Shown: piece by piece, positions 1-47,095 of the stretch
Layout: the number at the start of each line of letters is the position of its first letter
How positions within the stretch are numbered: the stretch's first letter is position 1
From: Rhea pennata
Taxonomy: Eukaryota > Chordata > Aves > Rheiformes > Rheidae
Length of the DNA stretch: 64,000 nucleotides
Direction: 5' to 3'
Assembly: GCF_028389875.1 (NCBI RefSeq)
Contig: NC_084672.1
Span: 496,001 to 560,000, forward strand
The notes under the pieces: model-generated
Told to the model about the DNA's origin: nothing
Seen by the model: only the letters and a program-made list of their open reading frames with translations
Database searches by the model: none
Translations under genes and position numbers: made by a program

Positions 1-63
1 GCCCCCGGCCCGGCCCCCCCGCCCGGCGGCCCCCCAAGCCCCCGGCCCGGCCCGGCCCCTCAC

Positions 64-74
64 CTCTTCCTCAT
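64..74 (-). CDS. PRC1: PRC1, first coding exon (partial gene at window edge)
   Basis: Only 11 coding bases are present. On the minus strand they read ATG AGG AAG AG, followed directly by a GTGAGG donor, so the protein begins M-R-K and the next codon is split. Human PRC1 begins MRRSE with the same early split. PRC1 bundles antiparallel microtubules at the spindle midzone and recruits KIF4 for cytokinesis. The call rests on three things: the tiny first coding exon, the cell-cycle-type promoter just upstream (CHR and CCAAT boxes), and the position downstream of VPS33B on the same strand, as in human. The rest of the gene lies off the left edge. The sequence at 1-63 is GC-rich intron 1. The exon alone would not identify the gene. 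Confidence 0.6.
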
Positions 75-112
75 CGCGGCCGCTCCTCGCGGCCCCGCTC
101 CGGCACTGCCGA

Positions 113-361
113 TTCAAACTCGCCTCCCAGAGACGCTAATTGGCTGCCAGGAGCGACTGCGTCACGGCTGGCCCCGCCTACAACCGCCACTGCGGCCCCG
201 CCCCAGCCGCGCCCCACGGGCGAGTTCTCCTTTCCTTCGGGCTGCTCTCCCAGCCGGCGTCCACGGCGGCCGGTCCCGCCCCAAGCGCAGCACCAGCCAA
301 TGGCAGCGGAATGTTCTACTCGCTTTCACCCAATCAGCAAGGCGGCGAGCCCTACCGGAAG
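113..361 (-). promoter_or_regulatory. PRC1: PRC1 promoter: CHR, CCAAT boxes, GC boxes, ETS site
   Basis: On the minus strand a CHR-type motif TTTGAA lies at 113-118, with an inverted CCAAT box (ATTGG on plus) at 139-143, about 20 bp away. More CCAAT boxes lie at 297-301 and 330-334, GC-box-like CCCCGCC runs lie between, and an ETS site CCGGAAG lies at 355-361. A CHR spaced closely from NF-Y CCAAT boxes is the known layout of G2/M genes controlled by DREAM and MYB-MuvB. Motif positions are read directly; binding is inferred. Confidence 0.65.
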
Positions 362-419
362 AAACGTAAGCGCGCCCTGACGCGAGGTGCTGGGCGCGCG
401 CTCAGAATTTGACAAGAAC

Positions 420-2175: not shown

Positions 2176-2337
2176 GGCATCGTGTCCCCCTCAGACAGGA
2201 CACCCCCTGCTTACAGACTGCCCCCCGGGCCTGGCCCCCTCCATCCTGCTGCCCTCAGGGCTGTGTCCTGGCTCGGCCCCCAAGCCCGGGGGCTCTGCCG
2301 CAGAGCCAAGCCACGCCGGAGTCCAGTGCACAAGTGG

Positions 2338-2343
2338 TTTATT
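2338..2343 (-). terminator. VPS33B: VPS33B poly(A) signal AATAAA
   Basis: TTTATT on plus reads AATAAA on the minus strand, about 175 nt after the VPS33B stop codon. Cleavage is expected near 2320, about 145 bp before the 58-bp array. Confidence 0.8.
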
Positions 2344-2518
2344 CAGTGCGCGGGCTGTGGCCAGCAGCCTCCCTCCACCCTCGGGGGGCAGCCAGCCCCC
2401 AGCGCTGCTCCACCCAGCCTGCAGGCCCCACGCTGCCCGGCCGGGGCCACGACACTGCCCAGCGCGCTCCTCTCGCCCCAAGCCTTCCCCCCTCATCCTC
2501 CAGTGAGCCAGCACAGCC

Positions 2519-5500
2519 TCAGGCTTTTGTCTCAATCATGGCCTCCATCATCCGCGCACTGTTCGTAATTGCTGTTGTCAAGAAGATGAACTTGCACCCT
2601 GAAAAGGGAGAAACCCTGCAAGGCTGCAGCCAGCACCCTGTGCTACAGCAGGCTGCAGCGGTTCCCAGCACGCAGGAGCTGGAAGTTGGAGCCGCAGCAC
2701 GGAGATGGCAGCTGGGCAGAGTGACTGCCTGCTTTCCTGATACTGCTCTCCATCTCTGGATTTACACCTGCCCTAGGGGATACCTGTTCCCATGACAGCA
2801 GGCTGGGAGATAGCCCACGATTTTAACCCACCCACTGTCTCCACCAGGAGTTAGGTCATAGGTTTAGGTCAAGAGAATAGGAGGGGTTTACGCTTTAACC
2901 ACTGCTGATTCAAAGTACCATAACTGCTCGGATTTATCCTGTGTGATCACAGCAAGTCTTTCTTACTGTGATCAGAAGCAGCACCTGCTCTTGCATGCTC
3001 CCTGCCCTGATGCAGGGCCCTGCTCCCAGCACTCCAGTGGCCCGTACCTTTCTCCTTCCCCAAAAAGCGAAGAGCAGCAATTTCAGAGAAGGTGCAGCCT
3101 CCTAAGAACACTACGAGGATGATGTGCTGAGACTCCCAGGCAGGATTATCCTCCACAGCACTCTCTGGAAGGAACAGAGTGTTGTTAACCTGACCAACTT
3201 GAGGCCTGCCCTCCCCAGAAGCCCCAAGTGCTGGCATTACCTGTAACAGAAAACTCATTGCCATTGAGCAGGCGCACAACTTCCTCCAGGCCCAACCAGC
3301 TTTTGCGCTCTAGCACCTAGGAGATGAACAGGGGAATGCAGGCTAGGGGACAGAAAAGACGTGCACAGCAAATACACCAGGCATATCTCAGGAGTAAGTC
3401 CCCAGGCCTGAAAGCAAGGCACCAATCAAGCAGATGAATACTGCCATGCCTCTATCTGGGAACCAAAACAGCACTTCCCAGCCCAGTCCTGAGTGGAGGA
3501 ACATCCTTCAGACCCTCTACAAAGATACCAGAGGCACTTGGCTAAGGCTCACGAGGGAGGCAGGATTTTCCTCAGAGAGGACTTGCAGCGCCTTTCTAAG
3601 GGCAGACTTACCTGTTCAATGATCTTGCAGCTCAGGGGAATGTAGGCCCCACTGAAAACATATGCCATATCCCGTGGCATTTTCAGATCATACTCTCCAT
3701 CCACCCGGGGAATCTACAGAGACACATATTACTCAGCGTTTGGAAGCAGTTTGCTCTGGGCTTCACCTACCACATCAGATGCATAGGTTGATGAGGAGAG
3801 ACAGACATTCAAAGCGAGTCTGTGTCTTCATCTCCTCTCCTTCCTCCCTGGCCACCAACGGCCCAAGATCAGGCAAATACATGGCACAGTGGGCTATGCA
3901 TCAGACCGAGTGCCAGAGACTGCAAACATCACCTCTCCACTGTGCCCCGGAGAGTGCTATTCCCACAACACCAGGCAGCTACATCCCACCCAACTCCTGC
4001 AAGCAGCCAGCCAGACACCCAACACTGCTCTTAGGGCAGATCAGGAGTATTCACAGGATGCAGTATGAGGCTATGGCAGTTAGAGTTATCCTTTAACTGG
4101 AGCACCTGGCATTTCACTACATAGGTGGAGCCAGAGACACAGCAGATCATAGAGTCTGCAGTCTCTCTTGTGTCAAGAGGAGAAGCAGCTCTGGTTGTCT
4201 TGTGAAGTGAGCATGTCCCCAGCTGCCAGGATCTTAGGGAGCCCAGAACTTTCACAGCCAGGCAGTCACAGACCAACCAGATCCCTCTGACAACAGTGGA
4301 TATGTGAACAGAGCAGCAGGCCAGCAGCCTAAGGACATACCAACCCCAGCTTCTTGCTTATGCCTCGAAAATTGCTCTTCCTGGCCAAAGAATTAAATGC
4401 ATCTGTGATTTTTCCTGGAAAACAAGGCAAGGAGAAATGGCTCAGAGCCTTGAGATTCATCACTAGGGGCAAGAGCTGGAGACTCCTAGACACAAGCAAG
4501 GTAGAGTGAGGAACGGTGCAGAGCACCTGGCTCCGGAAGAGAAGGGGCAGCAGTGCTTCCCAGTCCTGCCACCCCCAGAGGAAGAGTCAGTTGCCATGTT
4601 TGTAGCAGCCCTGGGCACAGCTGGGACACCACCTCTGGGGACGTGCTCCATGCCTGGGGCATCTGGGCTTGCCATGTGCTTCTGGGATGCAGATCAGGAA
4701 ACACCAAGTCTCCACAATTGTCTGCCCCCTCTGAGCTTCCCCACAGCTCAGTCTCCCAGGGCACTTGAGGGGCAGAAAGAAACCTAGCTCTCACCTGCAG
4801 CTCGGTCTGTCACCAGCTTGCTCACTTTGCTCTCCACAGCAGTCAGGGTCTCTCCAGGAGACTGTTCAGTGAGCAGCCCAATACGCTTGAGGTTGTGGAA
4901 AGTCAGCAAGTGCTCAGGCCCGTAGCTCTAGGAAAAAGGGCAGTGGGATCAGAGTCAGGCCCCAGTGGTGAGCAGGGATGTACAGCAGTCTAGGGAGACT
5001 GCTCAGAGAAACCCAGTAAGGAAAGAGCAGGAGAGGGCAGAGCACACGGCTTGTGCTGAGCTCAGGAAGACAGGGTTAACATTTCTGCTCCAGGCTGCCC
5101 TACAGAGGCACCCAGCCCACCCAGTGATTGCTCTGGCCCCCAGACACACTCACTTGCAGGTACTGGGTTTTCAGGGAACGGTAGTCCTTGGGGATGAGAC
5201 CTGTGGGGAGCATCACAGGGAGAACTCAGCACCAAGACCTAGAGGGTCTTCAGTGCTGCCCCTCCCTGACCAGCACCCCCAGACACCTCACCATTCTCCG
5301 TGATGGACAACAGGCACATCAAGCGCAGGCTCTCAATGGGGGATACCTGCATGGGAACAGGCACTGTAAGCAGCCTGCCCAAGTTCCCCCTTCCCCTGAC
5401 ACTGGGGCAGGGTGGCAAGAGCAGCCTGCCCCTCCAGCTCAGCACAGTCTCACCTGTCGGTCAATGTGCTCCTCTATGAAACTGGTGCTCTCACGGATGT

Positions 5501-8500
5501 CAAAACCCTCCAGCAGAGCTGTCAGGGAAAGAGGCAGAGTCACTTCATCCTAAGGGCCAGGCTGACCAACCCACAGGAAATGGCAATACTGCTCTGCACA
5601 GGGGCACAGAGAGCCCCAGATCCACAGCTCTCACAAGCCAAGCAAGGTAGGATCTGGGTGCAGCTCCCCTCCCTGAACCTCAGGGAAAGGTAAGGCCTTG
5701 TGATGTTTGGTCTTCTACCGCATTGTGCATTGGCCCTGTGACGATATGGCTTGACTCTACTTAGGGCTTCACAACTCCCCTCAGTACAAACAGTCTCAAA
5801 GGACTGCAGCCATGCAGCGGAGCACCTGGGGCAGCCCAGACCTGGGACTAGTGAGGCTGTGAGTCAGAATGGAGGGTATGGGAGTGAGGACTGGGACAGA
5901 GGGTAGCAGTAGATTTGGGACTCACAGTGTTCAGTCTTGATCATCTCCTGAAAGTCCTGTTTGGTCTTCTTTTTCATGATGGACTCACAGGCACCAATAT
6001 CTGCACAGCCAAGAGAGACCATCGCTTTGGAGGCATACAGCTTGGCCCTCCCCAGTACAGACAACCTCATGTACTGACAGCTTCTGCTAACCCTGCCCAT
6101 TGCTTAGGGCATCTGCTTCTCCAGGGGACTAGCCAGCCTTTGAGATACCCCTACTTTTCTCCCTGGAGCCCAGGTACCAGGTGCAGTAGTCCAAGGCCTC
6201 TCCCTCCCCACTGCCCCAGCTCTGGTTCCTACGCAGACTCAACAGGCGATGCTCTTGCTTTAGTCCCTTCAGCTCCTGGGAGACAAAGTTCTTCATCTGC
6301 TTGATGTCCATCCCACGACGCCGCTGTGGAAGAAAGAGTGTCTGGGGAAGTGCTTGGATACAGAGGGACAGCACTGCGGGAAGTCTTGCACGCTCAGGGG
6401 ATGAGCCAAGCAGGCCCAACACTCACGTCATACTGTGCCTGCAAGTTACGTGACTTTTGACTCAGGAAGCCAAACACACTGGAGAAATGCTCGTTCCGTA
6501 TCTGGCTGAAGACCTACACAGAGAATACTGCAGCAGTCACAGCGCAGCATGGGCCCTGCACTCGCTCACGCTGAGTGAAGGGTCCACCAGTCACAGCTCA
6601 GCCAAAGCACAACAGGACTCAAGAGCCTGCTCTTATCAGCACCCTGAACAACAGCAAGACAAGGTGGTATCCCTGCCAGGGTAGACAGAGTCCCTCACCC
6701 AGGCCCCAAAATACCAACTAGCAGGCACAAAACAGGAAGGCACAAAACACGCAGGGACTCTGGCAATTACACATGCTGAGCTGTCTGGGGACCATGTTTC
6801 TCCCGCCCCCATACCCATTCTTTCACAACCAGCCCCCCTTAGGCCCAGCAGCACCTGGTCTTTCCCTGCTCCCTGTTTAGGGTTTCCAGGAGTAGATAGC
6901 CCGAGTCAGCCTCCTCCCAGTGCCAAGTGGGCAGGGAGCACTGAGGGGACCCACCACAACTGAGGCATTTGAACAGGATTCACCTTGTCCTGGGAGTTGA
7001 GCAGCACCTTAATACTCTTGTCAGAAGAGGTGACCTCTGGCCCAAAATCCACGCTCCCTGCAGAGAATGATGAAGAGGTGCTTTGCCCCAGCACTACAAA
7101 CTCCCCTGCACATGTCTACTAGGTTGCAAAAGGCTCTGGGGAAGGGCGACAGCTGCTCAGCAGCTGTCAGACCAAGGGCTGTCCTTGCAGACAACTTCTG
7201 TCCCTATGGGGAAGAGCTCCTGCTGTAGCACACAGGCCTTTGGTCTGACACCACCAGGCAAAGACCCCAGACAGACCCTCACTACACACTGTGCAGGGCC
7301 CTTTGCTGCTCCATCGCCTCCTCCTGTGACCTACCACACTTGATACGGAAGGTGTCGTCCACCAGCCCCTCATACACCACCTGGGAGCACAGTGCTGTGA
7401 CGTAGTCTGTGTCTACAACGAGAACCGCAAGGCAAGGGCTCGTGTGTTCATGGTCTTCAACCAGCAAGCTGCTCTGCTGCTCCTCACACCTACTCCTACC
7501 CATCGTCTCTATCTCCCACAGCTGGCTGGCCCTGCATAGCTTCCACCACCACCTCCAGTTGCTCCAAGCCTCCTGATTACATCCAGAGCCAGCACGTCCT
7601 CTCCTTGCACCACGTAGCTGGGCATCCTTCTCCGATGGAGCTGCCAGCCACACTGCTCCCTCCTTGCCAGGCCCCAAACCTGCTGCCACTCCTCACTCCA
7701 GCTGACCATGCCAGGTCCCTACCTCTGTCCATGAGAAAGATGTTGCCAATCTCAGGCTTCCTGCCCTGACTGTCGCCCTCACTCTCCTCCTCCAGGTCCC
7801 GCCACAACTCATAGCTCATCTGTGAGGGGAACAATCATATCAAGGCCTTTGAAAGATCAGTCCCAGGTACCTACTAAGGGGCACAGTACACCCCAGCATT
7901 AGCCCTTCCATGCACTGATGTGGGCATGCCAGCCAGAACATGATCTAACACGGCCTCTAGAGAATAATAAATGCAGCAAGTCTCAAGATCATATACACCA
8001 AAAAACTGAGTGCAAATACTTCCTCCCAGCCAGGGCACACGGCATTCCTAGACACCTCAACAAGCAGCAGACACTGCCTCAGCTCTGCACAATCTGAGTA
8101 CATGCAGCACTGGCTGGGAGATGTGGGATGACATGGACCTCTCTTACAGATGTGCTGAACATCCCCAGCACCATCTGTGAAGAGGCACAAGAATATTGTG
8201 ATCTCTGGGGTTACACAAACACTAGATGGCTGATTGGTTTTGATCCCCTGCAAACTGTGCCCCATATGAGAACCAGAGAGAGGCCCTGCCCCCAAGCACA
8301 GGCAGAGCTCTGCAGCATGCGCAGTACCTTCGCACACCTGCCAATCCCATAAGCCTTGCTGAAAGGCCCATACAGGGAGTTCAGTAACTGCAGGGCTCGA
8401 GCAACAGAGTTGATCCAGCGGTGATCTCCTTCCTGCAGGGACCACAAAAACATTGGGGAGCAAGTCTGGCCGAGCTGGCTTGGAAACATCTGTGTATGTT

Positions 8501-11393
8501 AGGGAACTTTGCTGGGGCTGGATTGCAGATGGAGCAGGCCAAAGTCTTGTCTTCCAGGAAGGAAGTACACAGAAACATGCAGAAATTCCCTAAACCTTGC
8601 TCAGGAGTGACCAGAGGAGGGGCTAGCACAGGAGCCGGTGTGCAGGTGTGTGGAAAAGGAAAGACATCAAAACCCATCAGAGCAGCTGGCTGAGGGAATA
8701 GCCAGCTGGAAGAGCAGAGGAAGGCCTGCAGAAAGGGCTGAGAGGACCAAGCAAGACATGTCACGTATCAGCTCCCTGAGCAAAGCTCTTCTGTCCTGGG
8801 CCTAAGAAATGAATGAGGGAAAGGCTGTAATCCCACAGGGCAGTGTGTCCCAACAGGACTGTCCACTGACCAAAAAGTAGTCACGGAAGAACTCAGGCAG
8901 CTCCATGCTGATGATGTCATCATCCAGTGGGAGCAGGTAGAAGGACCATTCATCACAGGTCACATCTGAGTTTGGGACAGAAAAATGCAACATTTACCCA
9001 ATACTCAACAGAAACAGCCCCAAGAATTATGACAGCCCCTCAGACAGATGGGTCAGACAGCACAGGGATCAGGCCTTTCAAAGGGATTCCCTCCTTTGTA
9101 CTGAGACAGGGCAGGACTGTCTCTCCTCCCTGAAAGATGCTGATTGCTCACACACTCTGCCCCACAGGCAGGCACTCAGGCTCATGGGACCCTGCTGTTT
9201 TATGGCCATACTTGGGACCCAGCCAGTACACAGGATCCCACCACCGCAGTTCACCGATGTCAGAGCTACTGTGAGCCAGCCATCGGGGCAGGAGGAATGG
9301 AGGTCAGGCACCCCGGTCCCACTCACCACCAAAGACACCCTCTTCCTCCAGCACCATCTCACAAGCATAAAACTGCAAGACAAGAAGAAACCCTCAGCAC
9401 CCAGACAGGTTCCAGCACCACCTGCACAGAGTGCAGACCAAGGTCTCCTAGAAATGGATGTGACTATTTTATTCCCAGACATTGCAACATTTTGTTTCAG
9501 TTCAATGGCTAAGGGTGAGAAATTAAGAACTTTCAATTTTGGTAACAGCAGCAGAAAGTATGAAGACCGGACTCGGAATCTATGGTGGTAACTGGTAGGA
9601 AAGAGCAGCCAGACTGACCTTCTGGGGGCTGAAAATAATCTTGTACTTCCGGCTCCTCCCTGCTATTTTATCAGCATTCACAATATCTGCAGACAAAACA
9701 CTTGGGTTAACCAGACCTAAAGCTGTCCATCAACCTGAACTAGCACAATTCCTCTTGTACAACAAGATCTGGGGTCCCAGAATGTCACAGGCCTTGAAAT
9801 ACACCAGGCAGAAAGCGAAACCCTGTGTGTGGAGCCAGTTTCCAGAGGGTGCAGGCTCACTGAAAGCCCTTATCCGTCCTGCTTGGTACTGGCAATGCAG
9901 AGCACCAAGTCCCAGTCCTCAGAAGCACAGGATGCTCATTAGGCCCATACATCACTACTGACCTTCCCAGCACAGCCCACTAGGCAGCAATGTCCCAAAT
10001 CTCAGCACAGAGCTGAGGAACTACCCACTGACAACAGGTGACTGACAACTGCCCAGCAGGCCCCTTGCACTCACCAGCAATGTACTTCATGGTCTTGATC
10101 CGTGGGCGGACAAGGAAGCAGAACCTGTGCTCACACAGAGCAACAGAGCAGAGTGAGAAACAGGAAACCCTCTGAAACCCCTTGTGCCCAGCCCTGCCTT
10201 CCCAGGCCCCTTTTCTTCACCAGCATCCCTGCACTGAAATCCCTCTGGTCCAGGGGAAGCAAATCCAGAGCTGGAAGAGGCCCCTGCACCCAGACCCATC
10301 ACGTTTGTTTTATCCTGCCTGCTCTGCAAACTGCTCCAGTTTGCAGTCAGGCTTGGGACCAGCTGTCTGACAGCTGGCAAGGCTGCAGGCTCTGCAGGGC
10401 AGCACCCAGTACCCCCAGTGCTGGAGGACTCACTGGTCACTGGTGCTGGTGGTGGGCCTGTTCTCCACTTTGTACAGCTTGTCCACCTCGTGCTGCTGCA
10501 GGGAGAGCATGGGGCCGTCAGAGGGGCAGCGCCAGGGCACCGAGCCTGCCAGCCTGCGGCCCCTGCAGTACCTTGAGGATGGAGACGTTGGCGATGCGGT
10601 CCAGGGGGCTCATCAGGTCGGCCTCGATGAACAGGTCCTTCCTGCCGGGGAGCTGGGGGCGTGCAGGTGTGGGCGGGGGCCCAGCAGCTGCCCAGACTGC
10701 CCTGGGACCCCTTTACTGTCCCCGGCCGCCCCCCAGGAACCTCCTGCTGCCCCAACTGCTCCCCCTGGACCCCTCCACTGCCCCCAGTCCCCTCTATTGC
10801 CTCTGACCGTCCCCCGGGCCCATCCACCACCCCCCTCCAGGCCCATCTGCTGCCCGTGATTGCCCCCTAGATCCCTCTACCACCCCCGACTGCCCCCCAG
10901 GCCCATCTGCCGCACCTGACTGACCCTGGGCCCCTCTGCCGCCCTGACGGCCCCCGGCCCCTTCTGGTGCCCCCGACGGCCCCCCAGACCCTTCTGCCGC
11001 CCCCGACCGCCCCCTCGGACCCCTCTATCGCCCCTGACCGCCCCCCGGACCCACCTGCCGCCCCTGGACCCTCTCCGCTGCCCCCGACCACCCCCGGACC
11101 CTTCTGCCGCCCTCGACCGTCCCCCGGCCTCTCTCGGCCGCCCCCGACCGCCCCCCGGCCCATCCGCCGCCCCCGAGTCCATACCCTGCCCCCCCCCCGC
11201 CCCGCCGCGGAGCCGCTCCGGGGCCCATCGCTGCCTCCGCCGCCCGCCCGGGCCCGACTCCCCCGCCTGGGCCGGCCAGGGCCGCCGCCGCCCCGACCTG
11301 CTCCAGCAGGTAGATGAGCTGGTCCCTGGCCAGACGCTTGAGGATGGCGAAGTCGGGCGGCTCGGGCGCGTCGCGGCGGCCTGCGAAGGCCAT
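2519..11393 (-). CDS. VPS33B: VPS33B, Sec1/Munc18-family vesicle fusion protein (complete)
   Basis: Exons: 11298-11393, 10572-10652, 10434-10495, 10075-10124, 9619-9686, 9327-9372, 8871-8965, 8328-8432, 7723-7819, 7335-7412, 6984-7057, 6427-6513, 6233-6323, 5926-6000, 5454-5518, 5292-5346, 5154-5200, 4795-4927, 4341-4414, 3612-3713, 3241-3316, 3048-3164, 2519-2598. They sum to 1854 nt, or 617 aa, the human length. It starts [20 protein letters not shown]. Conserved blocks include [68 protein letters not shown] and [20 protein letters not shown]. The whole protein is a Sec1-like fold. In the known family, VPS33B pairs with VIPAS39 to direct late-endosome, lysosome and alpha-granule trafficking, and loss in humans causes ARC syndrome. 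The exon 1 donor (GTCGGG) is weak. No disabling change was seen. Confidence 0.97.
10700..11180. repeat. Degenerate ~30-bp GC-rich tandem repeat in VPS33B intron 1
   Basis: Units of about 30-31 bp built on CCCCCGACCGCCCCCCGGAC and a CCTTCTGCCG tail recur roughly 14 times with many substitutions. On the VPS33B sense strand it is strongly G-rich and could form G-quadruplexes in the pre-mRNA. It explains the long overlapping open frames here. Confidence 0.75.
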
Positions 11394-11478
11394 GGCGGGG
11401 GGCGGCGGCGCCACCCCGGAACGGCCCCGCGCGGCCGCGGGCCCCGCCGGACCGACCCGGAGCGCGAACGCCGCGCGC

Positions 11479-11520
11479 GCCGGAAGCGCCCGGCGCCATG
11501 GCAACCCTCGGCCGGAAGCG
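11479..11520. promoter_or_regulatory. VPS33B: VPS33B promoter: two ETS sites flanking an X-box-like site
   Basis: Two CCGGAAGCG ETS/GABP-type sites (about 11479-11488 and 11512-11520) flank GGCGCCATGGCAACC (about 11491-11505). Its second half ATGGCAAC matches the RFX X-box exactly, while the first half is imperfect. The cluster is about 90-130 bp upstream of the VPS33B ATG, inside the 198-bp gap after HDDC3. It has no TATA box. Factor binding is inferred. Confidence 0.5.
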
Positions 11521-11567
11521 GCGCGCCGCGCCCCGGACACAGGCAGGCGGCGGTGGCGACTCGCACG

Positions 11568-11573
11568 TTTATT
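11568..11573 (-). terminator. HDDC3: HDDC3 poly(A) signal AATAAA
   Basis: TTTATT on plus, AATAAA on the minus strand, starts about 18 nt after the HDDC3 TGA (11592-11594). The predicted 3'UTR is only about 35-45 nt, ending near 11550 and about 150 bp upstream of the VPS33B start codon. Confidence 0.8.
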
Positions 11574-11591
11574 GCCGGGGCCGCGGCCCGG

Positions 11592-14500
11592 TCACAGCGG
11601 CACCCCGCGCTCCTCGAAGAGCTGCCGCAGCGCCGCCTCCAGCGGCGGGCTCGTCCCACGCAGGCCGCCGACCACCCGCGCCGACCACTGGAAGTACTCG
11701 TGCACGCGCTGCGCCGACCAGCCTGCGGGGGCGCGCGTCAGGCTCCGGCACCGCCGGGGCCAGGGCCCCCCGCCCCGCCCCGGCACCGCCCCCCCCGGCA
11801 TCCCGGCACCCCCCGGGAGCGGGACCAGCACCCCCGCCCCGCCCTCCCCCCCCCCGGCATCCCGGGACCAGGACACCCCCCCCCCCCGGGACCTGGCATC
11901 AGACAGCAGCGCCCGCGGGGCCCACCCCGGGACGCCCCCGCAGGGCACCGGGCCCAGCGCAGGAGAGCCCCGAGCACTCTGCCGAGAGCAGCCTCCCCAC
12001 ACAGTCTGGAGGAGCCCAGGGAACCCAGGCGAGGACAGTTCCCCTGTGGGAACCCCAGGGACTTCTCTGCCGGAAAGAGATGGGGGACAGAGGGGATGCG
12101 ACTTCCGTAAAATCATCTGCAGACAGACCAGCTGGTCGCCCTCTCTTCCAGCAAAGCACAGGGCAACAAATAAAGAGTGGAGGAGGACAGGTTTGAAACA
12201 AGACAGAAGAGGAGGCTGTTCACAAAGGGGGTAATAGAGCTGCAGAACATCTTGCCAGGAGATGTGGGCACTAAAGGTTTTCATGGATTCATGTGAATTT
12301 GAAGGACCTTTGGCCAGATACGTGGCAGCTCAGTGCTGCTACGTTATCTTGTGGGCTCGGAAGGACACGCCACCTTGGGCTGGCTTGCAAACAAGGGCAC
12401 TAATGCGGCTAGCGCCAGGCAAAGGGAAGAGGCTCTCAGGGAGCCCCTGGAATTGCTGCGGTGAAGGACACGGTGCTGATGCTGGGGTCCGGCCTGTTCC
12501 CTTGCTCCTCACACAGCATGGTGCTGAGCTGCTGAATCTTTCCCAAACTCCATTCTAAAGAGCACTATCACAGCAGGGAGAGCTGTTTGCGAGCAGTGTG
12601 GGCAGAGGACACCGAGCACAAACCATCCACGTGCCCAGCATTGGCTGTGAGCTGCTCTGCTCCTTAAAACCTCCTCTGGGTACAGCTGAGTGCTCCCAGG
12701 CTCTGGTCGATCAGCCGACCGCTTGGCAGGCCACAGAGCCTGCACCTCTCGGAGAAATCGGTCTGTCCCCTCCCACTTCCCCTCTCTGGAGCTGAGGGAA
12801 AACGGTAACTTTTTTCCTGCTAACACCACTGCTTGCAGCCAGCTGTGGGGCTCAGGGCAACATGCAGCATTTTTGGTGAGGGCTGAGGGAACATCTGCCC
12901 CTCGGGGTCTTGCCAGGGGCTGGGGACCAGTCCAGTGGCCACAGAAAGCAGAGCAGCCCCTTGCCATCAGTCTCCATAGGAGCAATGATAACGGCGCTGT
13001 GAGCCAGCAGCTGCCCTGCTCCGCAAACGCGGCCTGCGGACACTGCAGAGGTGGCAACGTGGAGCTCTGCAGCATTGTGGCTGCTCTCAGGAGCGGAGCT
13101 GCTGTGGCTAAAGCCGGGCTCAGCATCCGCACGCGCCTGCAGCTGGGCTGCCGCCTGCCCGGGCCCGGGTGGGTCTCTACCTGCTGGGGTGCAGCGGTTT
13201 AGGTCGCGCAGGTTGTGCAGCTTGTCTGCCAGCTTCACCAGCTTGGCCCTCGGGCTGCAGTTGGGCGCGTGCTCTATCTGCAGGCGCTTTCGCTCCATCT
13301 TTGGCAGTGTCTTATCATCCGTCACCTCCTCCACAACACGCCTCACCTCTTCCCCAAAGCACTCTTCTATCTCTGAGAACGTGGTGTCCGTGTCCTCCAC
13401 CGTGTCGTGCAGGAGAGCAGCCTGGGGCGAGAGCAGGGACAGTCAGGGGCCCCAGACAGGCGGGGCGAGGGGGGGCGGTGGGAAGGGCATTACCTGCAGC
13501 ACAACAATGTCTGTCACACCAGCCTCATGGGTCAAAATCCTGGCTACACCTGTGACGCACAGAGCAGAGATGGGGAGGGGGCAGAGGGAGGTAGCCAGGC
13601 CCGGCACACGCATGGCACCAGCCCTGGGCCGGCAGAACGGCTCCTGAGGGGAGTGTTTGAGGGGAGGTCAGCCGGGGGCCCCGGGACCTGCCGTGGTGCT
13701 CTGGGGCAGCAGGGGCCGGTGGGCGCTTCCCACAGTGGAAGGTGGAGCAGGAGAAGCCTCGGGCCGGGCTGGGAGGGTCCAGCTGGGGGCAGCATCCCGG
13801 GCAGGGGGCCCTGCGGGTTCTGCCCTCAGGCGAGGGTGAGCCCAAGCCACCCGCTGCTCCAGCGCTGCTCCATTGCCACCGCGACACCAAACCCCAGGTT
13901 GGGGAGGGGCAGCTCCCATGGGTCCCATGTGGTCCCAGCGGTGCAAGGGGGACTCCCGGGCCAATGGAGGGCTGGCGAAGGGCAGAAGGGGTCCCAGGGG
14001 CTGCGCAGGCTGTCTCCTAGGTGGGCAATGCTTCAGGGGCTCTGCCCAACACCAGCCAGAGCTGCGGGACACGAGAGGTCCTGGGGGGCTCTCTCCAGAG
14101 GCAGGCAGTACTCCCAGAAGCCTCCCGGGACCTTCCAGTTGGCACTCTGGCACAGGATGGGGGTCCTGGGGGCTTCTCCCCAGGAGGGGGCAGCGCTCCA
14201 GGGCATGAGGGGGTCCTGGGGGCGGGCAGGTCTCTGGGGCATGAGGGGGTCCCGGGTGCTCTTTCCCGGGGGGCGGGCAGCACTCCGGGGCACGGTGGGG
14301 GCCCCGGGGGCGGGCACCGCTCCGGGGCACGGTGGGGGCCCCGGGGGCTCTTTCCCGGGGGCGGTCGGTGCTTCCGCGCGCGGGGATCCCGGTAGCACAG
14401 GGAGGTCCCGGGCGGAGGCTCCGGGACAAGCCCGGTGCCCGGGGCAGGAGGGTGCCGCGGGGGAGGGGGGGCAGGGAGCGGCGGCGCGCGGGGGGCGCGG

Positions 14501-14667
14501 GCCCCCCCGGGCGGGCAGCGCTCGGGGCAGGAGGGCTCCCGGCGGCGGCTCGCACCGATGGGGTGGTTGATGTAGGGGGTGCCCTCGGGGTCCTTCCGCC
14601 GCTGCGCCTTGTGCTTCCTGGCCGCGAAGTCCGCCGCCTCCAGCAGCCGCGCCGCCTCGGAGCCCAT
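11592..14667 (-). CDS. HDDC3: HDDC3 (MESH1), HD-domain NADPH/ppGpp hydrolase (complete)
   Basis: Exons 14556-14667, 13494-13549, 13181-13421 and 11592-11722 total 540 nt, or 179 aa, equal to human HDDC3. The start [20 protein letters not shown] matches the family. The Mn-binding HD-domain residues are in place: His35 in INHPIG, His61-Asp62 in LLHDTVEDT, and Asp122 in KLADKLHNL. The known enzyme is the metazoan SpoT-like MESH1; it hydrolyses ppGpp in vitro and acts as a cytosolic NADPH phosphatase. Intron 3 (11723-13180) holds an old LINE-like fragment. Its start codon lies 77 bp after the NGRN stop codon, so its promoter must overlap the NGRN terminal exon. Its end lies 198 bp before VPS33B. 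Confidence 0.96.
12120..12350 (+). mobile_element. Old CR1/L3-like LINE fragment (HDDC3 intron 3)
   Basis: The stretch resembles the conserved 3' portion of CR1/L3 LINEs, with phrases of the type 'GGGTAAT.GAGCTG.AGAAC', 'GCCAGGAGATGTGG' and a following 'GGATTC'. It has no clean 3' tail and is diverged, so it is an ancient 5'- and 3'-truncated copy. It was identified by eye. Confidence 0.45.
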
Positions 14668-14743
14668 GGCCGGCGCACGGGCCCGCGCGGCCCCACGGGT
14701 AACACGCAGACGCCGGCGGCGGGAGGCGGGTCGCGCCCGGCCG

Positions 14744-14749
14744 TTTATT
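14744..14749 (-). terminator. NGRN: NGRN poly(A) signal overlapping its stop codon
   Basis: Minus-strand sequence CAATAAACGG: the NGRN stop codon TAA (14745-14747) lies inside AATAAA (14744-14749). No other signal was seen before HDDC3, whose ATG is 77 bp away. If used, the 3'UTR would be about 15-25 nt. Confidence 0.7.
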
Positions 14750-15421
14750 GAGCGCCCGGCCCCGGCCCGCCCCGGCCCCGCGGCAGCCGGTACAGCAGGC
14801 TGCCGTCGGGCGCCAGCACCTCCCGGCCGCCGCGCCCCGCGCCCGCGCCCCGCGGCACCGGCTTCGGCACGGCCCCGGCCCCGGCGGCGGCGCCCAGCGC
14901 CCGGGCGTCCTGCCGCTGCCCGCGCCGCGGCGACGGGCTCCAGCCGCTCCGCAGCACCCTGCGCGCCTCGTCGGGGCTGACGCCGAAGCCCTCGGCCAGG
15001 CGCTCCAGCGGCCACTCCTCGGGCAGCTCCCGCCGCAGGTACCTGCGGGACACGCGCACAGTGAGCGGCGCCGGCGCCGGCCCCGGCCCGGCCCGGCCCG
15101 GCCCGGCCCGCTCACCGCATCTGCTCCATGGCCTGCCGGGTGAGGCTGCGCCCCGGCGCCGCGCCGCGCTCCGGCGCCAGCTCCCGCCGCAGCCGCCGCA
15201 GCCGCACCGCCGTCCGCCGCCGCCGCGCCCTGCGGGGCACAGCAGTGAGCGCGGCCCCGGCCCCGGCCCCGGCCCCGGCCCCGGCCCCGGCCCCACCTCT
15301 CCGCCTCCTCCAGCGCCGCGTCCGGCGGCTCCGGGCCCCCGGGCCGCGCCGCCGCCGCCCGCCGCGGGGCCCCGGCGAGGAGCGCGGCGGCGCGCAGCCC
15401 CCGCCGCAGCAGCGCCGCCAT
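14745..15421 (-). CDS. NGRN: NGRN (neugrin), mitochondrial rRNA-associated protein, short form
   Basis: Exons 15297-15421, 15116-15229 and 14745-15042 give 537 nt, or 178 aa. The N-terminus (MAALLRRGLRAAALLAGAPR) is Arg/Ala-rich and lacks acidic residues, like a mitochondrial presequence. The neugrin core is clear: LTRQAMEQMR joined to RYLRRELPEEWPLERLAEGF, then GVSPDEARRVLRS. The C-terminus REVLAPDGSLLYRL matches human REFFDSNGNFLYRI. Human NGRN is 291 aa, so the variable middle is about 100 residues shorter here. NGRN is known to work with RPUSD4, TRUB2, RCC1L and FASTKD2 on mitochondrial 16S rRNA. Intron 1 begins with a GGGGCC array. The gene is extremely GC-rich and would be easy to miss. 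Confidence 0.88.
15253..15294 (-). repeat. (GGGGCC)7 hexanucleotide array in NGRN intron 1
   Basis: Seven perfect GGCCCC units on plus (GGGGCC on the NGRN sense strand) start 2-3 nt inside the intron 1 donor (exon 1 ends at 15297). The motif is G-quadruplex forming. Confidence 0.95.
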
Positions 15422-16607
15422 GGCCGGGCCGGGGCGGAGCGGGGCCGCGCGGCTCCTCCCGCCGCTCCCTGTGCTGCGGCGCGGGACAGGAGGCCCCCGA
15501 AGCGGGGCGAAGCGCACCAGCCCCGGCCGCAGGCGGGTGCAGCGGGAAGGAGCCGCGGCGCCGGCACCTCCGCGGCGGGAGCTCCACTGCCCTCCCGGCA
15601 GAGGCACGGCTGGGCCCGGGGGAGCAGGGATGCGAATGCTGCTGACCGTGCTGGGTGTCCTGTGCTCACACAGAGCTGTCTGGCATCTCAGCACGGTTGT
15701 CCAGTGCTCTCTAAAGCCCGCAGTAGGATGCTTGGTCAGTCCTAGATTCAAGTCAGCGGGAGCAGACAACAGTGATCCGGGTCTGGCCAGACCAAGCATC
15801 CTACACCCACACCCACGGCTCTCTGATTAGCACACAGGAGTTCAGAAGCTTGATGCTCCTCATGATGCTGCTTGGCTCTGTGGTATGTGCTGACAGACAC
15901 CCTTTCTGCCTCTGCTCCTTTCTCTGCTTGTAAGACTGTGAAACAGCTGGGGAACCAGAACTAGCAAGCAGAGAGAAATCATTGGGGGAAGGGGGGCTGC
16001 CACGGCTTGGTGGGGGAGGTGTTGGTACTGGGAATACCGACGGAGCTTTGTGGGGAAGGGCTTCACACAGCCAACTGAAGGAGCCATCAGAAGCCTGGGA
16101 TCACCATGGCAGGAATGAGACTCCTCACATTTCCCAATTCCCATCAACCTTTGGCTTCTTGGAAACCACTCATTTTCTTCTCTGCCCCTGCAAATAGGAT
16201 GCTCCTGCTCTTGGGCAGAGACTTCCAGTGGTTACCAGTTCTCAGAGTGCAGCATTGCTGCTACAAGACTGAGCACTTCAGACTCAGAGCAGTATTTCTA
16301 ACCCCTGTGCTCCTCTCATCCCACAGAAGCCCAAGAGTACCCAGAACTTCCAGGTGTCTGCATGTGGCTCTGGCTCACTGGTTTTCTTGAGCTGCCAAGA
16401 TCCAGAAACTCAGAACCAAGGTAACATAGATCTTTGCTGGTCTGTTAAAATCAAACAGAAGGATACACATTTTAACAAACACACCAATGGGAGCAGAAGA
16501 GCTAAGCAGCCTACGAACCAGCTAATTTAAGTTCCTTCAAATGGTCCAGAGGGACACCTAGACAGAGGAGCACATTTAAAAAGATGGCAGGCTTTCAGAT
16601 TATATAC
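15422..16607. other. NGRN promoter and TTLL13 3'UTR/intergenic
   Basis: The GC-rich stretch 15422-15600 is the NGRN CpG-island promoter. From about 15650 the sequence becomes ordinary AT-balanced DNA and should hold the TTLL13 3'UTR. I found no minus-strand AATAAA or ATTAAA here, so the TTLL13 cleavage site could not be placed. No gene seen. Confidence 0.6.
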
Positions 16608-44820: not shown

Positions 44821-45072
44821 CGGCGCTGCCCCGCCGAGCCTCCGCCGCCTCCCGCGACGCCGCCCGGGCGCTGCCGACCTGCGGGGAGAGAGGGGCTCAG
44901 GCCGCCCGCCCCGACGGCGCCCGCCGCCCCGCGCCGCCGCCCGCCCCCCGCGGGACCCGCGCCGGGCAGCCCCGCCCCGCCCGCGGACCCCGCCCCCGCC
45001 CCGCCCCGGGGGGGCGGCCCGCACCGCCCCGCGCTGCTGCCCGCGGCCGCGGCACATCCCGGCCGCAGGGAG

Positions 45073-47095
45073 CCGGTGCCGCCGGCGTGCCCAGCGGTGC
45101 CCGGCCAGTGCGACCCACGGCTGCGAGCTTCCCCAGCAGTGCCCTGCCAGAGGGACCCAGTGCTGCCAGCGTGCCCAGCGGTGCCCGGCCAGTGCGACCC
45201 ACGGCTGCGAGCTTCCCCAGCAGTGCCCTGCCAGAGGGACCCAGTGCTGCCAGCGTGCCCAGCGGTGCCCCGCCAGTGCGACCCACGGCTGCGAGCTTCC
45301 CCAGCAGTGCCCTGCCAGAGGGACCCAGTGCTGCCAGCGTGCCCAGCGGTGCCCGGCCAGTGCGACCCACGGCTGCGAGCTTCCCCAGCAGTGCCCTGCC
45401 AGAGGGACCCAGTGCTGTCAGCGTGCCCAGCAGTGCCCGGCCAGTGCGACCCACGGCTGCGAGCTTCCCCAGCAGTGCCCTGCCAGAGGGACCCAGTGCT
45501 GTCAGCGTGCCGAGCGGTGCCCAGCCAGTGTGACCCACGGCTGCGAGCTTCCCCAGCAGTGCCCTGCCAGAGGGACCCAGTGCTGCCAGCGTGCCCAGCG
45601 GTGCCCCGCCAGTGCGACCCACGGCTGCGAGCTTCCCCAGCAGTGCCCTGCCAGAGGGACCCAGTGCTGCCAGCGTGCCGAGCGGTGCCCAGCCAGTGTG
45701 ACCCACGGCTGCGAGCTTCCCCAGCAGTGCCCTGCCAGAGGGACCCAGTGCTGCCAGCGTGCCCAGCGGTGCCCGGCCAGTGCGACCCACGGCTGCGAGC
45801 TTCCCCAGCAGTGCCCTGCCAGAGGGACCCAATGCTGTCAGCGTGCCGAGCGGTGCCCAGCCAGTGCGACCCATGGCTGCGAGCTTCCCCAGCAGTGCCC
45901 TGCCAGAGGGACCCAGTGCTGCCGGCGTGCCCAGCAGTGCCCGGCCAGTGCGACCCACAGCTGCGAGCTTCCCCAGCAGTGCCCTGCCAGAGGGACCTAG
46001 TGCTGCCAGCGTGCCCAGCGGCGCCCGGCCAGTGCGACCCACGGCTGCGAGCTTCCCCAGCAGTGCCCTGCCAGAGGGACCCAGTGCTGCCAGCGTGCCC
46101 AGCGGTGCCCCGCCAGTGCGACCCACGGCTGCGAGCTTCCCCAGCAGTGCCCTGCCAGAGGGACCCAGTGCTGCCAGCGTGCCGAGCGGTGCCCAGCCAG
46201 TGTGACCCACGGCTGCGAGCTTCCCCAGCAGTGCCCTGCCAGAGGGACCCAGTGCTGCCAGCGTGCCCAGCGGTGCCCGGCCAGTGCGACCCACGGCTGC
46301 GAGCTTCCCCAGCAGTGCCCTGCCAGAGGGACCCAATGCTGTCAGCGTGCCGAGCGGTGCCCAGCCAGTGCGACCCATGGCTGCGAGCTTCCCCAGCAGT
46401 GCCCTGCCAGAGGGACCCAGTGCTGCCGGCGTGCCCAGCAGTGCCCGGCCAGTGCGACCCACAGCTGCGAGCTTCCCCAGCAGTGCCCTGCCAGAGGGAC
46501 CTAGTGCTGCCAGCGTGCCCAGCGGCGCCCGGCCAGTGCGACCCACGGCTGCGAGCTTCCCCAGCAGTGCCCTGCCAGAGGGACCCAGTGCTGCCAGCGT
46601 GCCCAGCGGTGCCCAGCCAGTGTGACCCACGGCTGCGAGCTTCCCCAGCAGTGCCCTGCCAGAGGGACCCAGTGCTGCCAGCGTGCCCAGCGGTGCCCGG
46701 CCAGTGCGACCCATGGCTGTGAGCTTCCCCATCAGTGCCCTGCCAGAGGGACCCAATGCTGCCGGCGTGCCTAGTGGTGCCTGGCCAGTGCGACCCATGG
46801 CTGTGAGCTTCCCCAGCAGTGCCCTGCCAGAGGGACCCAGTGCTGCCAGCGTGCCCAGTGGTGCCCAGCCAGTGTGACCCATGGCTGCGAGCTTCCCCAG
46901 CAGTGCTAAGCCAGTGGGACCTAGCACTGCCAGCGTGCCCAACAGTGCTCAGCCCATGGGACCTAATGCTTCAAGATTCCCTGTCACTGCCCTGTCTGCA
47001 CAAGCTGGTGCTGTGAGCTTCCCTGGCAGTGTCCTTCCTGCAGGACCCAGTGCTGCGAGCTTGCCCAGCAGTGCCCTGCCCATGAAACCCAGGAG
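45073..47095. repeat. 84-bp minisatellite with 42-bp substructure and a 504-bp higher-order repeat
   Basis: About 22 copies of an exact 84-bp unit run to about 46960, followed by decayed 42-bp units to 47095. Each 84-bp unit is two related 42-bp halves: one begins CCAGTGCTGCCAGCGTGCCC, the other CCACGGCTGCGAGCTTCCCC. Variant markers show that units 45577-46080 are repeated in the same order at 46081-46584 (CCAATGCTGTC at 45829 and 46333; CTAGTGCTGCC at 45997 and 46501; an ACAGCTG variant in the units starting at 45913 and 46417). Because 84 is divisible by 3, long frames stay open on both strands; no gene is called. It lies about 290 bp upstream of the SEMA4B start, inside the presumed first intron. 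Confidence 0.95.

Follow-up and report, generated by a model that had tools for sequence, protein, structure and literature searches.

Tight head-to-tail packing of NGRN, HDDC3 and VPS33B in the Rhea pennata genome and their probable expression as three separate genes

Genes at the locus

The window analyzed here is a stretch of 64,000 nucleotides from Rhea pennata (contig NC_084672.1, positions 496,001 to 560,000), which corresponds to C10:496001-560000, C10 being a contig of 25.5 Mb in the searched assembly (1.27 Gb, 180 contigs). Its minus strand carries NGRN, HDDC3 (MESH1) and VPS33B in head-to-tail order, and their coordinates are collected in Table 1. Exon structure, spacing, hexamers, CpG blocks, reading frames and one genome-search match each for NGRN and HDDC3 were computed, and cleavage sites, start sites and the independence of transcription are what we infer.

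NGRN was rebuilt from three exons over a coding span of 677 bp, and its product matches the Pfam family Neugrin (PF06413) at 1.3e-21. HDDC3 was rebuilt from four exons (179 aa, coding span 3,076 bp) and matches structure 3nr1 ('HD domain-containing protein 3'), which we take to be the human protein, over nearly its full length (E 1.2e-91). The genome search returned a single Neugrin match and a single HD_4 match, which are the two genes of the window themselves. As well, the sole tblastn match of HDDC3 in the window and the fetched stretches L010-L015 and L016-L021 was the window copy. For VPS33B, the first and the C-terminal exons were examined. The first exons are similar to the Vps33 chains 8dit (3.5e-5) and 4jc8 (3.7e-5) and fell short of a Pfam Sec1 match, with a value of 0.11, and the C-terminal exons matched Sec1 at 3.4e-18 and VPS33A at 2.8e-16. 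A genome search with the Sec1 family gave 15 matches, none inside the window, which, the VPS33B exons being short, neither backs nor denies the naming. VPS33B was preferred over VPS33A because the VPS33A score is only moderate and PRC1 is a neighbor.

The distance from stop to ATG is exactly 77 bp between NGRN and HDDC3 (14744-14668) and exactly 198 bp between HDDC3 and VPS33B (11591-11394), spacings which are given as measured distances only. The tight one-strand packing, which had been claimed in a sequence-only reading of this DNA, was thus confirmed from the rebuilt exons, and assembly gap letters, looked for across the whole window, gave no N. All three genes start in a GCCATGG context.

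Table 1. Coordinates of the genes, gene ends, gaps and CpG-rich blocks (positions of the window)
Feature	Position	Strand	Details
NGRN coding span	14745..15421	-	exons 15421-15297, 15229-15116, 15042-14745; introns 67 and 73 bp; GT-AG sites, open frame
NGRN poly(A) signal AATAAA	14744..14749	-	contains the NGRN TAA stop (14747-14745)
NGRN-HDDC3 gap	14668..14744	-	77 bp; 86% G+C; no ATG, no AG
HDDC3 (MESH1) coding span	11592..14667	-	exons 14667-14556, 13549-13494, 13421-13181, 11722-11592; GT-AG introns
HDDC3 poly(A) signal AATAAA	11568..11573	-	starts 19 nt downstream of the HDDC3 TGA
HDDC3-VPS33B gap	11394..11591	-	198 bp; 84% G+C
VPS33B coding span	2519..11393	-	ATG at 11393, stop ending at 2519
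CpG-rich block	14250..15750 (about)		observed/expected CpG 0.88-1.04 in 500-bp windows; covers all NGRN exons and HDDC3 exon 1
CpG-rich block	11000..11999		observed/expected CpG 0.87-1.09; covers the HDDC3 last exon and VPS33B exon 1

Poly(A) signals at the gene ends

Each of the three genes possesses an AATAAA at its end. The earlier claim that these signals lie at or within about 25 nt of the two upstream stops holds, since the NGRN hexamer overlaps its stop codon and the HDDC3 hexamer follows its own at 19 nt; the VPS33B hexamer starts at 2343, 176 nt past the stop. Between 11000 and 15600, the minus strand contains just two AATAAA, those of the NGRN and HDDC3 ends, and none of eight variant poly(A) hexamers was found there. 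Over 2300-15500, three of the four minus-strand AATAAA lie at gene ends (14749, 11573 and 2343), the fourth (9473) being located within the VPS33B span. The chance of an AATAAA in a given 30-nt stretch was about 6e-4 at the NGRN end and about 7e-5 at the HDDC3 end, according to a first-order Markov model of the local sequence, in whose training the hexamer itself was included. Because the 3' region of NGRN is stop-poor (about 85% G+C), the NGRN stop is itself likely to fall in the hexamer.

At the C-terminus of NGRN, LLYRL precedes a tail of twelve residues, rich in Gly, Pro and Arg, that ends at the stop in the hexamer. Human NGRN presumably ends at the position matching LLYRL, and bird NGRN may therefore have lost an earlier stop and run on into the AATAAA. 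The gene (14745-15421) is also very small, with 178 aa and two introns of 67 and 73 bp. Compared with human NGRN, which we take to be much longer, it seems to have lost its middle part.

Start regions of HDDC3 and VPS33B

The 77-bp gap contains a T-rich element, TGCGTGTTACCCGT, from 14708 and a KLF/Sp-like site, CCCGCCTCCC, at 14730 (the motif names KLF/Sp-like, ETS-like and CHR-like are our own assignments). It contains no AG dinucleotide, the nearest one upstream being 14801 in NGRN exon 3, and thus it offers no splice acceptor and no upstream exon can splice into it. The 198-bp gap possesses two ETS-like CTTCCGG sites, at 11518 and 11486, and the element GTTGCCATGG at 11505, which contains an upstream ATG at 11499. 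This ATG, also in a GCCATGG context, is not in the VPS33B frame, and the open frame that it begins in unspliced RNA extends past the VPS33B ATG; an unspliced RNA running from HDDC3 into VPS33B would therefore offer a strong wrong start before VPS33B. Moreover, both start regions are covered by CpG-rich blocks (Table 1), which are permissive promoter evidence only, since high CpG in GC-rich exons is partly compositional.

Since the 77-bp gap contains no AG, and hence no splice acceptor, it is very likely, as far as the DNA itself can tell, that HDDC3 initiates within or beside the NGRN 3' end. The sequence-only reading went further and stated that the HDDC3 promoter must overlap the NGRN terminal exon, which stands for a local core promoter, given the length of the gap, and does not stand for a remote non-coding first exon, an exception that is narrowed by the lack of any AG from the gap upstream as far as 14801 within NGRN exon 3. 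Such an exon belongs to an arrangement in which HDDC3 would be driven by a distant shared promoter, for example that of NGRN, and spliced over part of NGRN. The CpG-rich block that runs unbroken from the NGRN start to HDDC3 exon 1 would suit this, as would the sparse promoter motifs in the 77-bp gap, but splicing would need an acceptor within NGRN exon 3, no nearer than 14801, and the local CpG content suffices for a promoter of HDDC3's own, so we regard a distant promoter as decidedly improbable, the absence of AG from the gap having lowered its odds somewhat further.

Read-through and chimeric transcripts

Most read-through chimeras in a human renal carcinoma study (PMC4744188) join the second-last exon of one gene to the second exon of the next. 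At this locus, that prevailing join would give no fusion protein at either junction. From NGRN exon 2 into HDDC3 exon 2, the frame is lost and a stop follows seven foreign codons; both NGRN donors are of phase 2 and fit no HDDC3 acceptor (phases 1, 0 and 1). Joining HDDC3 exon 3 to VPS33B exon 2, which was the VPS33B acceptor used for all chimera frames, is also out of frame.

Joint reading frames had been considered as support for an operon and were rejected, because no NGRN donor fits an HDDC3 acceptor and HDDC3 exon 3 misfits VPS33B exon 2. The failed frames rule out simple fusion proteins from the prevailing join, and they are silent on selection, because two joins would both fail by chance in about 4 of 9 cases.

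According to PMC8972054, joint RNAs are rare at human tandem gene pairs, while the polymerase usually continues past the cleavage site: 90% of the reads that overlap the upstream cleavage site extend over 50 nt or more of the gap. Even with rare joint mRNAs, one would therefore expect transcription to pass through the HDDC3 start, and a run-on of 50 nt would here reach about the HDDC3 start. This run-on, the common strand and the gap of just 77 bp could be taken to favor operon-like read-through, in which NGRN transcription would often continue and HDDC3, perhaps with VPS33B, would be expressed partly from joint or spliced chimeric RNAs; the one join found in frame, from HDDC3 exon 2 to VPS33B exon 2, speaks for it as well. 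However, each gene has its own AATAAA, the prevailing joins fail in the ways given above, joint RNAs are rare at human pairs, and NGRN and HDDC3 are non-adjacent in a human gene list (PMC5485587), and we consider such read-through improbable.

The description of chimeric NGRN-HDDC3(-VPS33B) transcripts as likely thus finds no support, in view of the separate AATAAA signals, the out-of-frame canonical joins, the upstream ATG at 11499 and the rarity of joint RNAs in human. Nor is an operon-like reading supported, each gene having its own AATAAA at its end and its own GCCATGG at its start. Instead of an end-processing signal after the last gene only, AATAAA is present at the end of all three, and three genes with three end signals are the opposite of an operon's single terminator.

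Gene order compared with human

A gene table for a human 15q deletion (PMC5485587), taken here as map order, lists CIB1, GDPGP1, NGRN, ZNF774, IQGAP1, CRTC3, BLM, FURIN, FES, MAN2A2, UNC45A, HDDC3, RCCD1, PRC1 and VPS33B, with eight genes between NGRN and HDDC3 and two between HDDC3 and VPS33B. On contig C10, exons of a RasGAP_C domain lie at 87-90 kb, with further sets on C41 and C61, and the C10 set was taken as IQGAP1 by its position. A MAN2A2-like exon, UNC45A-like exons and an RCC1-repeat exon are located at about 466-487 kb on the plus strand. Open reading frames were examined there in L010-L012 (C10:466001-496000), three of six fetched stretches, L013-L015 being used in tblastn only.

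Next, on the minus strand, come the PRC1 exons (492.5-494.8 kb), whose candidate first ATG is at position 74 of the window. Before this ATG (1-400, minus strand), CCAAT-type boxes and a CHR-like TTTGAA are present, as expected for a cell-cycle gene. A 58-bp minisatellite (504-2178; 28.9 copies, 97% match) separates the candidate first exon of PRC1 from the VPS33B poly(A) signal. Past PRC1, the order is VPS33B, HDDC3, NGRN, TTLL13 (TTL domain matched), GDPGP1 and CIB1. Another minisatellite, of 84 bp (45067-46948; 22.4 copies, 94% match), lies to the right of SEMA4B-like exons.

The names MAN2A2-like, UNC45A-like, GDPGP1, SEMA4B, CIB1 and TTLL13 are provisional assignments of ours, and the naming of MAN2A2, GDPGP1 and SEMA4B also leaned on human gene lists. 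Candidate translations of these last three, one stretch each, gave no Pfam match. One of three UNC45A-like fragments gave TPR repeats and the other two no family above the cut-off, and the RCCD1-like exon matched RCC1 at 9.4e-4 with 20.2 bits, under the cut-off of 21.7 bits.

The MAN2A2-, UNC45A- and RCCD1-like exons, PRC1 and VPS33B keep the order of the human list, whereas HDDC3 is found between VPS33B and NGRN. Two changes separate the arrangements. Firstly, the row from IQGAP1 to VPS33B meets the NGRN block by its VPS33B end and not by its IQGAP1 end. Secondly, HDDC3 has gone from between UNC45A and RCCD1 to between VPS33B and NGRN, or made the opposite move in the other lineage; the move may have happened in either the bird or the mammal lineage. 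Neither short gap corresponds to a human adjacency, and there is therefore no unit in common with human. The intact introns of HDDC3 would speak for a move at the DNA level and not for a retrocopy. As to the pair NGRN-HDDC3 or HDDC3-VPS33B in the literature, gene lists only were found in the papers whose passages were examined.

This neighborhood also bears on the quality of the assembly. The region is very GC-rich and carries repeats, a sequence type prone to assembly error, but the window has no N, the frames and splice sites of NGRN and HDDC3 are intact, each of these two genes has one genome-search match, and the PRC1-VPS33B and GDPGP1-TTLL13-NGRN neighborhoods agree with the human gene lists. 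That the close join is an assembly artefact is thus barely credible.

Interpretation and significance

We favor, with a probability of roughly 0.8, three independent RNA polymerase II genes in tandem, closely spaced in a compact, GC-rich bird region some 0.5 Mb from the contig start. Each gene would be cleaved and polyadenylated at its own AATAAA, just past or overlapping the stop codon, and a CpG-rich promoter of its own, placed in the short gap and the 3' end of the gene before it, would start the next gene. One gene would then terminate and the next initiate over a shared 100-250 bp, as happens at the known short tandem intergenic regions of human. Independent genes are favored because AATAAA is present at all gene ends, the starts are GCCATGG, CpG blocks lie over both start regions and the 77-bp gap has no AG, and also because of the two ETS-like sites in the 198-bp gap, the out-of-frame prevailing joins and the separation of NGRN and HDDC3 in the human list.

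Several points weigh against three independent genes. The T-rich downstream element is mildly distinctive at NGRN, where 3.5% of block positions reach its value, and downstream T-richness at HDDC3 is not distinctive, 38% of block positions reaching it. The HDDC3 promoter motifs are weak, namely a single KLF/Sp-like site in the gap plus a GGGCGG that lies within the NGRN exon, and the in-frame join of HDDC3 exon 2 to VPS33B exon 2, although non-canonical, is present. In addition, the human tandem set of PMC8972054 was limited to genes longer than 5 kb, and the coding spans of NGRN and HDDC3 are shorter; a gap of 77 bp may behave worse than a typical human tandem pair.

As for its origin, the spacing is most likely to be read as compaction rather than as a product of selection for co-transcription. 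In birds, intergenic sequence becomes shorter as the recombination rate rises (Kendall tau -0.32 in chicken and -0.15 in zebra finch), and deletion bias increases along with that rate (PMC3342960). The present locus, GC-rich and 0.5 Mb from a contig end, would suit a region of this kind, which is why compaction is preferred.

A bolder proposal, which we hold only tentatively and consider unlikely, is that HDDC3 moved, relative to the human order, as a single intact, intron-bearing gene into the very place where the row from IQGAP1 to VPS33B meets the NGRN block by its VPS33B end, and now initiates inside the NGRN terminator, with NGRN 3'-end processing and HDDC3 initiation being mechanically coupled. 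The stop codon, the poly(A) signal and the 5' region of the next gene would then be fused in about 80 bp, as a natural minimal terminator-promoter.

The products of the neighbors were also considered. NGRN is part of a module needed for mitochondrial 16S rRNA (PMC8067846), and MESH1/HDDC3 is described as cytosolic. Shared regulation of the two is imaginable, but the suggestion that they are co-expressed by position is unsupported as a linkage argument, NGRN and HDDC3 being non-neighbors in the human table (PMC5485587).

If HDDC3 indeed starts tens of bases from the NGRN cleavage site, the locus would provide a compact natural test of how vertebrate polymerases end and start genes without interference. 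It is also a warning to annotators, because in such genomes false chimeras of NGRN, HDDC3 and VPS33B may be built by short-read tools. Moreover, it is a minor evolutionary puzzle that the human and bird maps place HDDC3 differently.

Comparison with known systems

Bacterial and nematode operons show head-to-tail spacings of tens to hundreds of bases, similar to the present ones. Unlike them, the genes here carry an AATAAA apiece, and all have CpG-rich starts with a strong start context. Trans-spliced leaders are not known to be used in vertebrates.

Conjoined genes and transcription-induced chimeras (PMC2953495 and PMC4744188) likewise involve same-strand neighbors that can in principle be joined by read-through; here, however, the prevailing join keeps the frame at neither junction. 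In the human complement pair C2-factor B, cited in PMC8972054, the genes are 421 bp apart and termination depends on MAZ, so closeness likewise demands efficient termination. The gaps here are shorter, and the MAZ element G5AG5 is absent from the sense strand over 10900-15600, one copy, at 14459 in HDDC3 intron 1, being antisense.

The human short tandem intergenic regions (STIRs) described in PMC8972054 are same-strand neighbors less than 2 kb apart with separate products, and have a GC-rich start region immediately preceded by a poly(A) signal, as is the case here. The stop-to-ATG distances at this locus measure 77 and 198 bp, and each upstream gene has its own signal (AATAAA at 14749 and 11573, with cleavage predicted). 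The STIR gaps average 58% G+C in the HepG2 set, compared with 86% and 84% here, and they are G-enriched, whereas on the sense strand neither gap here has more G than C (77-bp gap: G 40%, C 46%; 198-bp gap: G 41.9%, C 42.4%). The STIR study kept pairs with both genes above 5 kb, compared with coding spans of 677 bp for NGRN and 3,076 bp for HDDC3, which is a filter of that study and not a matter of biology. The arrangement of NGRN, HDDC3 and VPS33B is extreme, but it is most likely one of ordinary tandem genes, of a kind already known.

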